Origin: Luteolibacter rhizosphaerae
GTDB lineage: Bacteria; Verrucomicrobiota; Verrucomicrobiia; Verrucomicrobiales; Akkermansiaceae
Direction of reading: 5' to 3'
Assembly: GCF_025950095.1 (NCBI RefSeq)
Contig: NZ_JAPDDR010000005.1
Location: forward strand, 310,001-374,000
Length of the DNA: 64,000 bases
This document shows positions 44,178 through 46,261 of this stretch, one piece after another (the stretch's first letter is position 1; every line of letters starts with the position of its first letter). A program made the translations under genes and the position numbers. Under the pieces are notes generated by a model. That model had not been told where the DNA came from, ran no database searches, and saw nothing but the letters and a program-made list of their open reading frames with translations.

Positions 44178-46136
44178 TCAGGCGGAGAGGACGAAGCCCG
44201 CTTCGATCCGGCTCCGGTCCTTCGCCGGCCGCACTTCCGCGGCCAGCGCGGCCATGAACTCGGTGTAGTGCACGAGCTCCAGACGTCCGTCGTGATGCTC
44301 GACGATGGCCGTCATGCTCTCGACCCAATCGCCGGAATTCAGGTACCGGATCTCACCCACCTGCTTGTCCTCCGGGGTGTGGATGTGGCCGCAGATGATG
44401 CCGTCGCAGTTGCGCTTGCGGGCGAAGTCTTGGAGTTGGATCTCATACTCGCCCACGAAGTTCACTGCGGACTTCACGCGTGCTTTGATCGCCTTGCTGA
44501 CGGAGTAGTATTCCTTCCCGCGCCAAGCCCGGTAGCGGTTGTAGACGCGGTTGGCGCGAAGCAAGGCGTCGTAGCCGATCGCGCCAAGCACGGCCACCCA
44601 CTTGTGGTTGGTGGAGACGGAGTCGAAGCCGTCGCCGTGAACAACCAGGTAACGCTTGCCGTCCACGCCCTTGTGGATGTGCTCCTTCACGAACTGCAGC
44701 TTGCCGAAGCCGAGGGGCAGGAAGCGCTCGAGGATGTCATCGTGATTGCCGCGGAGATAGACGACCTCGGTGTCGTCCTTCTCCATCTTCTTCAGCACGG
44801 TGCGGATGAATTTGCTATGGCGCTTGCGCCATTTGGTGCCCCGCTTGAGGGCCCAGCCGTCGATGATGTCGCCATTCAGCACCAGCTTCTCGCAGCGGGT
44901 GTGCTTGAGGAAGTCGATAACCTCGTGGACCTTCGAGTCTTCGGTGCCGAGATGAATGTCGGAGAGGAAGATGGTGCGGAAGTTTCGCTTCGGCCGTTTC
45001 TTGCGCTCCTTGAGAGTGAGCGTGACTGGGCCGCGCGCTTCGCTGGCCTCGACAAGGTGGCTCTCGAAGGCCTCCACGACTTGTTCCCATCCGAGGGATT
45101 CGGCGGATTGTCTGGCGCGGGCCCGGAACTTGTCATCGCGCCAGCGTTCCAGAGCTGAGAGGCACTCGGTTTGATAAGCCGAGCCATCGCCCTTGGCGCA
45201 TTTCAGGCCGTTGCCACCGTGCTCCACGTGACGGGCGGAGGCGGCGTAGTCATGGCTGACGGTGACCAGACCACTGGCCATGCCTTCCAGGAGGACGTTG
45301 CCGAAAGTCTCGGTTTCGCTAGGAAAGAGCAGGATATCGGCCGAGGCATAGTGACGCGCGAGGTCCTCGCCCGTCTGCATTCCGGCGAAGTTTACGAAGG
45401 AATTCTCCACCTGCAGCTTCTCGCGCAGGGGGCCATCGCCCACGACCACGCAACGGAGATCCGGCACGCGCTCGCGCATCTTGCGGAAGCACTCCATCGC
45501 GAACGGGAGGTTCTTCTCGGCGGCCACACGACCCACCACAATGGCAACGGGTGACTCGGAGCGCGCACCCCACGAAGCTCGCAAGGTGGCGCAGCGTTTG
45601 GCGGGATCGAAGAGCAGAGTGTCCACGCCGCGTCCCAGGAGGCGGACGTTGTTAAAGCCCTCGCGGCGCAGCATGTCGACCACGTCGGTGGTGGGCGCCA
45701 TCGTGAGATCCGCGCGGTTGTGGACGCGTTTGAGATAGGCCATCGCGGCCGGTTGCAGTCCGCCGAGGCGATACTGCTCCATGTACTGATGGAAGTTCGT
45801 GTGGAAGCCTGCGGCGACCGGGATCTCCAAGGCGTTGGCGGTCTTGATCGCGGAACTGCCGAGCGGGCTCTCGGTGGCCACATAGACGGCATCTGGGCGA
45901 CGCTTCGTCCAGCGCTTGCGGAGCTTGAAAGGCCCGGGAAGCCCGACGCGGACTTCCTTGTATCCGGGCAGCGGGACCGATGCGGCGATGGTCTCCCCTT
46001 TTCCCCCACCCTCTCCCGTGCGGATCACATGGACCAAATGTCCCCGGCGGCGGAGTCCGTCGCAGAGGCGACCGAGCGTCATGGCCACGCCGTTGACGTC
46101 GGGAGCGAAGGTGTCGGTGACGATGTCAATTCTCAT
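44178..46136 (-). CDS. fusion of GT4 glycosyltransferase and LpxH-like metallophosphoesterase
   Basis: 652 residues in two enzymes. Residues 1-370: GT4 glycosyltransferase (IDIVTDTFAPDVNGVAMTLGRL; VGRVAAEKNL; E-x7-E as Glu276-x7-Glu284 in ETFGNVLLEG), of the type that makes mannosyl- or glucuronyl-glycolipids. Residues ~385-620: metallophosphoesterase with all metal motifs: LSDIHLGTED (Asp393, His395), NGDIIDGW (Asp423), LRGNHDD (Asn464, His465), VVHGDG (His500) and CGHIHTPE. This half resembles UDP-2,3-diacylglucosamine hydrolase relatives. Both active sites look intact. The pairing suggests one protein that transfers a sugar and cleaves a phosphodiester in envelope lipid synthesis (inference). 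Confidence 0.87.
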   Translation of the reverse strand: MRIDIVTDTFAPDVNGVAMTLGRLCDGLRRRGHLVHVIRTGEGGGKGETIAASVPLPGYKEVRVGLPGPFKLRKRWTKRRPDAVYVATESPLGSSAIKTANALEIPVAAGFHTNFHQYMEQYRLGGLQPAAMAYLKRVHNRADLTMAPTTDVVDMLRREGFNNVRLLGRGVDTLLFDPAKRCATLRASWGARSESPVAIVVGRVAAEKNLPFAMECFRKMRERVPDLRCVVVGDGPLREKLQVENSFVNFAGMQTGEDLARHYASADILLFPSETETFGNVLLEGMASGLVTVSHDYAASARHVEHGGNGLKCAKGDGSAYQTECLSALERWRDDKFRARARQSAESLGWEQVVEAFESHLVEASEARGPVTLTLKERKKRPKRNFRTIFLSDIHLGTEDSKVHEVIDFLKHTRCEKLVLNGDIIDGWALKRGTKWRKRHSKFIRTVLKKMEKDDTEVVYLRGNHDDILERFLPLGFGKLQFVKEHIHKGVDGKRYLVVHGDGFDSVSTNHKWVAVLGAIGYDALLRANRVYNRYRAWRGKEYYSVSKAIKARVKSAVNFVGEYEIQLQDFARKRNCDGIICGHIHTPEDKQVGEIRYLNSGDWVESMTAIVEHHDGRLELVHYTEFMAALAAEVRPAKDRSRIEAGFVLSA

Positions 46137-46261
46137 GGATAATCAAGTGTTCCAAACGAATCGCAATCAGGGTTTAGCATGACCGTAGCGGCCCGCGTTT
46201 CACCTTTCCTGTGTCGAATCCGACACCCGTCACCGGCATCGCCAGTTGGCTGGTGCTCAGA

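Follow-up and report, generated by a model that had tools for sequence, protein, structure and literature searches.

A fused GT4 glycosyltransferase and PlcP-type metallophosphoesterase in Luteolibacter rhizosphaerae and its family, a probable one-chain enzyme of phospholipid-to-glycolipid conversion

Luteolibacter rhizosphaerae and many of its relatives encode a single protein in which a GT4 glycosyltransferase (GT) resembling Agt2 is joined to a metallophosphoesterase (MPE) that we assign to the PlcP type (Table 1). With a probability of about 0.8, we regard this protein as a one-chain PlcP-Agt enzyme that turns phospholipids into glycolipids and so remodels the membrane lipids under phosphate shortage. 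Its C-terminal half would be a metal-dependent phospholipase C that cleaves membrane phospholipids into diacylglycerol (DAG) and the phosphate-bearing head group; its N-terminal half would use a UDP-sugar to glycosylate this DAG, and the product would be a glycolipid free of phosphorus. Fusion would hold both steps at one place on the membrane in a 1:1 ratio, and the swap of head groups would save phosphorus for a cell under scarcity. The observed basis comprises the fused architecture, the family relationships, the intact motifs, the gene context in relatives and a shared upstream palindrome; we infer the substrates, the products, the sugar and an induction by phosphate limitation. A role in envelope glycolipid synthesis, proposed in an earlier note on this DNA, is the likeliest reading. 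The order of steps given there, with sugar transfer named before pyrophosphate cleavage, is predicted to be the reverse, head-group removal coming first and sugar transfer second. The note's further idea, a lipid intermediate passed from one half to the other, fits this reading, in which DAG may be channelled. The PlcP-Agt pair and its pathway are already known, and the roles of both enzymes have been shown by mutants and expression in other bacteria (PMC4796936, PMC8528852, PMC9239053). Verrucomicrobia have been counted among the holders of PlcP (PMC4796936), and verrucomicrobial methanotrophs are reported to lack it (PMC9239053). Of the fused form we found no report in the open-access literature searched.

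Table 1. Positions of the fused gene, its parts and the upstream palindrome in the window.
Feature	Position	Strand
Fused gene, 652 aa: N-terminal GT4 glycosyltransferase (Agt2-like) and C-terminal PlcP-type metallophosphoesterase	44178..46136	-
GT4 half, residues 1-365, with UDP-sugar-binding motifs GRVAAEKN and FPSETETFG and histidine motif GFHTNFHQY	45042..46136	-
Linker, short and charged, about 20 residues (about 366-384; approximate borders)	44985..45041	-
PlcP-type metallophosphoesterase half, residues 385-631, helical insert at about 504-574	44244..44984	-
16-bp palindrome GTGTCGGATTCGACAC (gene strand), candidate operator, 75-90 bp upstream of the start	46211..46226	.

The window, that is the whole stretch of DNA analysed, comprises 64,000 nucleotides of a 6.2 Mb genome in 31 contigs. 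The fused gene is a single open reading frame with an ATG start and zero internal stops. Pfam covers the GT4 part in full (Glyco_transf_4 at residues 14-173, Glyco_trans_1_4 at 196-329), and the Metallophos match at residues 387-588 spans profile positions 2-191 of 191. The GT motifs lie at residues 202-209 (GRVAAEKN), 271-279 (FPSETETFG) and 110-118 (GFHTNFHQY). In the MPE half, SDIHLG starts at residue 392, GDIIDGW at 422, HGDGFD at 500, CGHIH at 582 and GDWVE at 602, and RGNHD occupies 462-466. Seven residues of metal-ligand type (D393, H395, D423, N464, H500, H584 and H586) are invariant in 18 fused proteins, and an alignment finds the same seven common to the window MPE and PlcP. The claim of one 652-residue polypeptide with a complete GT4 domain, a complete phosphoesterase and intact active-site motifs in both is borne out by the exact coordinates, the Pfam coverage and the motif positions. 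An AlphaFold2 model of the whole protein has a mean pLDDT of 81.1 and a pTM of 0.59, which says little about the relative placing of the GT and MPE domains. The neighbours in the window are a 3-dmu-9_3-mt family protein, a GNAT protein, a DEAD helicase and small proteins without family; none of the genes next to the fused gene within the window was recognised as a lipid or phosphate gene.

The fusion is a genuine, inherited single gene. A search of 57 genomes found it at full length and in one frame in 28 of the 35 genomes of the own family; the seven without a full-length match include two incomplete genomes, G004 (61% complete), which holds only a fragment of the fused gene at a contig end, and G010 (72%). 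Thirty-nine other fused homologues, 35-90% identical to the window protein, read as unbroken single reading frames with no frameshift and no assembly join, which puts the fusion far beyond chance. Named fused relatives include Luteolibacter marinus (85% identity), Rubritalea marina (61%) and Persicirhabdus sediminis (55%). A frameshift or assembly artefact is ruled out by the 28 family genomes together with these unbroken frames, and so both objections raised beforehand fall, namely that homologues might always be two separate genes and that the junction might hide a frameshift. A 387-genome sample of the phylum overlaps the 57-genome set, so that the counts are not additive; among its 38 own-family genomes listed, 27 have the full-length fusion (two of them with a degenerate GT half), one has the phosphoesterase only, and ten, all of genus g3, have no match at 1e-60. 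Two fused g3 proteins (L071:1468-3369 in G277, L072:1501-3411 in G150) have a GT half without the NGV, His, EKN and ETFG motifs, and their phosphoesterase motifs are intact despite the decaying GT domain; a third g3 genome, G242, has a stand-alone phosphoesterase. The lost GT motifs and the stand-alone MPE indicate that the phosphoesterase half can be useful alone, and since two g3 genomes retain the fusion with a motif-less GT half, both halves are not always needed. In another family, the fusion of genome G038 (L220) looks independent; its linker is much longer, and the frame has 744 residues. Equal frame lengths had also pointed to fusions in G269, G057 and G182; on reading, these are separate genes, and G038 alone of the four is fused. 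Three loci titled Akkermansia muciniphila (L076, L079, L080) encode fused proteins 68-86% identical to that of the window; the titles look wrong, the sources being metagenome bins.

The MPE half is 41.0% identical to a protein of S. meliloti (L039) and 42.5% identical to one of P. aeruginosa (L040), compared with 22.1% identity to E. coli LpxH (E 1.3e-5). PlcP of S. meliloti and PlcP of P. aeruginosa are stated to be 46% identical, and PA3219 and PA3218 to form an operon (PMC8528852). The L039 and L040 proteins share 46.6% identity, the L039 gene sits after a luxR-type gene and the L040 gene overlaps a GT gene. We take both proteins to be PlcP because of this mutual identity, because the overlap resembles the PA3219-PA3218 arrangement, and because the luxR-type neighbour would correspond to sinR, after which SMc00171 of S. 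meliloti presumably sits. In a tree of 41 MPE rows, obtained by a quick method without bootstraps, six LpxH rows on long branches split from the 35 rows that hold PlcP and the window MPE with an SH-aLRT support of 100. Within the latter, the window MPE belongs to a group of Verrucomicrobiota/Bacteroidota sequences (support 86) that is distinct from the characterised PlcPs of proteobacteria, so that its substrate could differ; we know of no characterised member of this clade. The alignment places GNHD of the window against GNRD of E. coli LpxH, a motif that to our knowledge is general to LpxH, and GDWVE is common to the window MPE and PlcP and absent from E. coli LpxH. We assign the half to the PlcP type on these grounds, and phospholipase activity is predicted.

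A model of the MPE half (mean pLDDT 75.1) leads in Foldseek to LpxH at ranks 1-11, and in VIA-align the top 23 rows are LpxH structures (Z 17.2-18.6, rmsd 3.0-4.6 over 180-201 residues, 16-20% identity). The earlier designation 'LpxH-like' is thus correct for the fold and does not hold for the family, where 22% identity to LpxH stands against 41-42% to PlcP. These nearest solved folds, together with a weak match to the NCBIfam LpxH model NF003743 (39.5 bits against a cut-off of 134) and the name 'UDP-2,3-diacylglucosamine diphosphatase' given to annotated relatives, would suit an enzyme whose C-terminal half is LpxH, cleaving UDP-2,3-diacylglucosamine for lipid A, and whose GT4 half modifies a lipid A precursor. 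We consider this highly improbable in view of the identities, the two motif differences and the tree split given above. Moreover, the LpxH model TIGR01854 is unmatched in the own genome and above its cut-off in none of the 57 genomes (one of two control genomes, E. coli and Bacteroides ihuae, was above it). The own genome encodes LpxI (E 8.3e-45) and LpxB, both elsewhere, LpxI being the enzyme that serves the LpxH step, and no lpx gene was recognised among the neighbours read. The lipid A part of the earlier note does not hold up: both lipid A-like synthesis and cleavage of UDP-diacylglucosamine are disfavoured by the PlcP type of the MPE half, the LpxH/PlcP split, LpxI and LpxB, the lack of an LpxH over the cut-off in the 57 genomes and the relatives' context of phosphate and DAG metabolism. 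The separate lpxH that the note suggested looking for was indeed not found in canonical form, but LpxI covers the UDP-diacylglucosamine step.

The GT half is 43.5% identical over 375 residues to a P. aeruginosa protein (L046), the best match among enzymes tied to a characterised one, whose gene adjoins plcR and phospholipase C genes. We take this protein to be Agt2 (PA0842), which is presumably located by the plcR and phospholipase C genes; the neighbours are not named in the text of the Agt2 paper. Identity to the L040 GT, taken as Agt1, is 30.1%. With DAG as acceptor, Agt2 takes UDP-glucuronic acid as sugar donor and can to some extent use UDP-glucose (PMC8528852). Since the GT half is close to Agt2, the transferred sugar may be glucuronic acid and/or glucose. 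Pelagibacter DAG glycosyltransferase has the motifs GRVAxEKN and FPSxTDTFG and a catalytic His (PMC8231724), and counterparts of all three are present in the window protein as GRVAAEKN, FPSETETFG and GFHTNFHQY. A fold search with the whole model recovers GT4 enzymes such as BshA, MshA and PimA. In a GT tree of 28 rows, the 26 rows with Agt1, Agt2 and the window GT separate from two actinobacterial rows (100/99), a split that comes with a long-branch warning and few GT4 outgroups, and this tree gives no settled order among Agt1, Agt2 and the window GT.

Outside the own family, GT and MPE are mostly separate genes. Among the best 80 named loci of the matches listed, 11 are fused. In 21, including Prosthecobacter and Verrucomicrobium, GT and MPE are adjacent on one strand, GT first, with 39-164 bp between the aligned parts. 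Another 18, 16 of them titled Opitutae, have GT first and a gap of 1.2-2.2 kb before the MPE; in one locus the two are on opposite strands, and in 29 the phosphoesterase is alone in the stretch. In 12 of these 21 loci with an adjacent pair, a phoU-type frame of the same orientation begins 54-173 bp downstream, and three of three PhoU proteins tested from such loci score above the PhoU cut-off. At least one Pho/Pst-type gene lies within 23 of the 80 loci (BLAST to tested seeds, at least 30% identity, 45% for PhoB and PhoR), and a Pst gene is found in the stretch of two of the 11 fused loci. PstC of L091 and PstS of L078 are above their cut-offs. For PstS of L082 and three PhoB-type proteins these families are the best match, yet below cut-off; one PhoR-type protein matches PnpS best and PhoR second, both below cut-off. 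All 18 wide-spacing loci have the order GT4, MGDG-synthase-like GT, MPE (for example L113:4734-8798), and in 14 of the 18 a DAG kinase directly precedes the phosphoesterase. Three MGDG-synthase-like proteins and one DAG kinase tested with Pfam are above their cut-offs, and four GTs of this Opitutae type are 41-47% identical to the P. aeruginosa protein identified as Agt2. The cluster of GT4, MGDG-synthase-like GT, DAG kinase and MPE is apparently a fuller glycolipid/DAG cassette.

The DAG kinase in this cluster makes cycling between DAG and phosphatidic acid plausible and lends some weight to another explanation, in which the MPE acts on a different phosphorylated substrate (phosphatidic acid, polyprenyl or glycosyl phosphate, ceramide phosphate), the GT glycosylates the product, and phosphate limitation is incidental. 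The MPE clade without a characterised member known to us and the lack of a classical Pho box, described below, would also suit it. Against it stand the closest characterised relatives found, PlcP and Agt2, the phoU genes adjoining 12 of the 21 adjacent pairs in the best 80 named loci, and palindrome-type sites at PiT and some Pst genes, so that we hold it to be improbable. As separate observations, the fused gene of two genus members has another, second pstS-type gene at a distance of 2 to 4 kb (L226:3986-4801 in G009; L209 in G015), and the window's genome has a single PstS match, away from the fused gene.

The PlcP-Agt reading would be in line with control by phosphate, and the upstream regions offer a candidate element. 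Within the genus these regions have mostly diverged; what is retained is a block at the start and, 88-94 bp ahead of the start, the 16-bp palindrome GTGTCGNNNTCGMCAC. An unbiased spaced-pentamer search of 73 dereplicated upstream regions ranks parts of this palindrome at the top (6 regions; best shuffled 3 to 5). An exact search of 18 genus genomes with a slightly narrower pattern found 23 distinct places, ten of them just upstream of the fused gene, and the reversed control pattern gave two rows. Six further places share one sequence, whose own-genome copy lies inside a coding region. We built a weight matrix from 16 genus loci (with a wrong segment included for L029, whose true variant scores 11.5); the scores of these 16 loci are circular because the matrix comes from them. 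Its background is one match of at least 14 and three of at least 10 in 67,329 bases (19 loci). Six of eight PHO4 loci (L184-L189) have sites scoring 14.5-20.8 upstream of the PiT operon; of the two without a site, one is a short homologue and one is broken by a contig end. In the three PiT loci read, the site lies about 20-25 bp before a DUF47 gene that precedes the PiT transporter gene, and Pfam confirms DUF47 and PHO4 in one of them. Sites scoring 11.5-17.8 lie just after pstS in four of 21 PstS loci (L198, L203, L205, L206), and the other 17 have none there. Three of the loci with such a site were read, and the next gene is pstC-type; that of L206 matches no Pfam family in its available part and is classed as pstC-type by 32% identity over 474 residues to the L091 PstC. 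Sites of 12.2-14.4 also occur elsewhere in L208, L210 and L211.

Within the genus, palindromes of the type GTGTCGN4CGACAC occur at the fused gene, at the PiT operon and after pstS, and outside the genus several fused loci have related GTGACG...CGTCAC forms about 60-97 bp upstream. We regard the palindrome as a candidate operator, possibly with a phosphate link. The classical Pho box CTGTCATNNNNCTGTCAT was considered as upstream element and rejected: its best match in the window reaches 8 of 14 positions, and in 86 upstream regions, near-duplicates included, it is not enriched above shuffles (four at 11/14 against 1.6 expected, none higher). This result counts against the PlcP-Agt reading, as do the 17 PstS loci lacking a site after pstS, the small share of fused loci with a Pst gene (two of 11) and the window's neighbouring genes. 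Elsewhere in the own genome (L156, C1:252016-252031), an exact palindrome is flanked by a frame whose start resembles a signal peptide and, about 0.7 kb on, by a PhoD-like phosphatase gene.

How the fusion arose is partly visible from the trees. In the GT tree the window's family forms a clade of its own (100/98), and the G038 fusion groups with unfused Verrucomicrobium/Prosthecobacter (100/99), so that the fused or separate state must have changed at least twice. These may be two fusions or a fusion plus a splitting, G038 being a single genome. The degenerate GT of L071 was omitted from the GT trees, and the sets were assembled without rows that had short hits. In the MPE tree the halves of the fused family do not form a single clade, and the two trees disagree on this group. 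At least two state changes and the persistence in 28 of 35 family genomes suggest some benefit of the fusion and weigh against a variant of the PlcP-Agt reading in which both activities are the same and the fusion is functionally neutral, ensuring equal expression only while DAG diffuses freely. As unfused adjacent pairs are common, the GT half of L071 and L072 has decayed beside an intact MPE half, and the model, at this pTM, tells little of domain placing, we see the chances of such neutrality as about even. A more detailed version of the one-chain reading pictures a head-group exchanger: both active sites would be oriented to the same patch of membrane and DAG would go straight from phospholipase to glycosyltransferase without build-up of free DAG, fusion would have taken place two or more times within Verrucomicrobiales, and control would lie with a palindrome-binding regulator that responds to phosphate and is not classical PhoB; taken as a whole, we consider it tentative and rather unlikely.

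Compared with the known PlcP-Agt pair (PlcP of S. meliloti, PlcP with Agt1/Agt2 of P. aeruginosa, SAR11, Methylosinus), the window protein shares both enzyme families, the gene adjacency seen in relatives, the expected DAG intermediate and the phosphate context. It differs in being one polypeptide with the GT first, in coming from Verrucomicrobiota, in a GT nearer to Agt2 (43%) than to the plcP-linked Agt1 (30%), and in an upstream palindrome instead of a Pho box. With LpxH it has in common the calcineurin fold with a helical insert and the nearest solved structures, whereas identity is 16-22%, GNHD replaces GNRD, the clade is separate and LpxI is present for the lipid A step. The GT4 glycoglycerolipid synthases (Agt, and GTcp of Pelagibacter) share GRVAxEKN, FPSxT(D/E)TFG and the histidine motif; the window protein has in addition a C-terminal phosphoesterase, and Glu for Asp in the second motif. 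The Opitutae clusters of GT4, MGDG-synthase-like GT, DAG kinase and PlcP-type genes hold homologous GT4 and MPE, but their genes are unfused, with one or two extra genes between the two.

A natural fusion provides a single protein in which the hand-over of DAG can be measured. We further argue that the usual annotation, 'UDP-2,3-diacylglucosamine diphosphatase', wrongly assigns such genes to lipid A synthesis; the palindrome offers a testable, possibly phosphate-linked operator in Verrucomicrobiota. Beyond this phylum, a Parabacteroides locus (L043:4022-5943) encodes a PlcP-type MPE, 50% identical to the window half, followed by a GT gene of the Glyco_trans_1_3 family; with the MPE preceding a GT of another family, the partner GT may vary between phyla.
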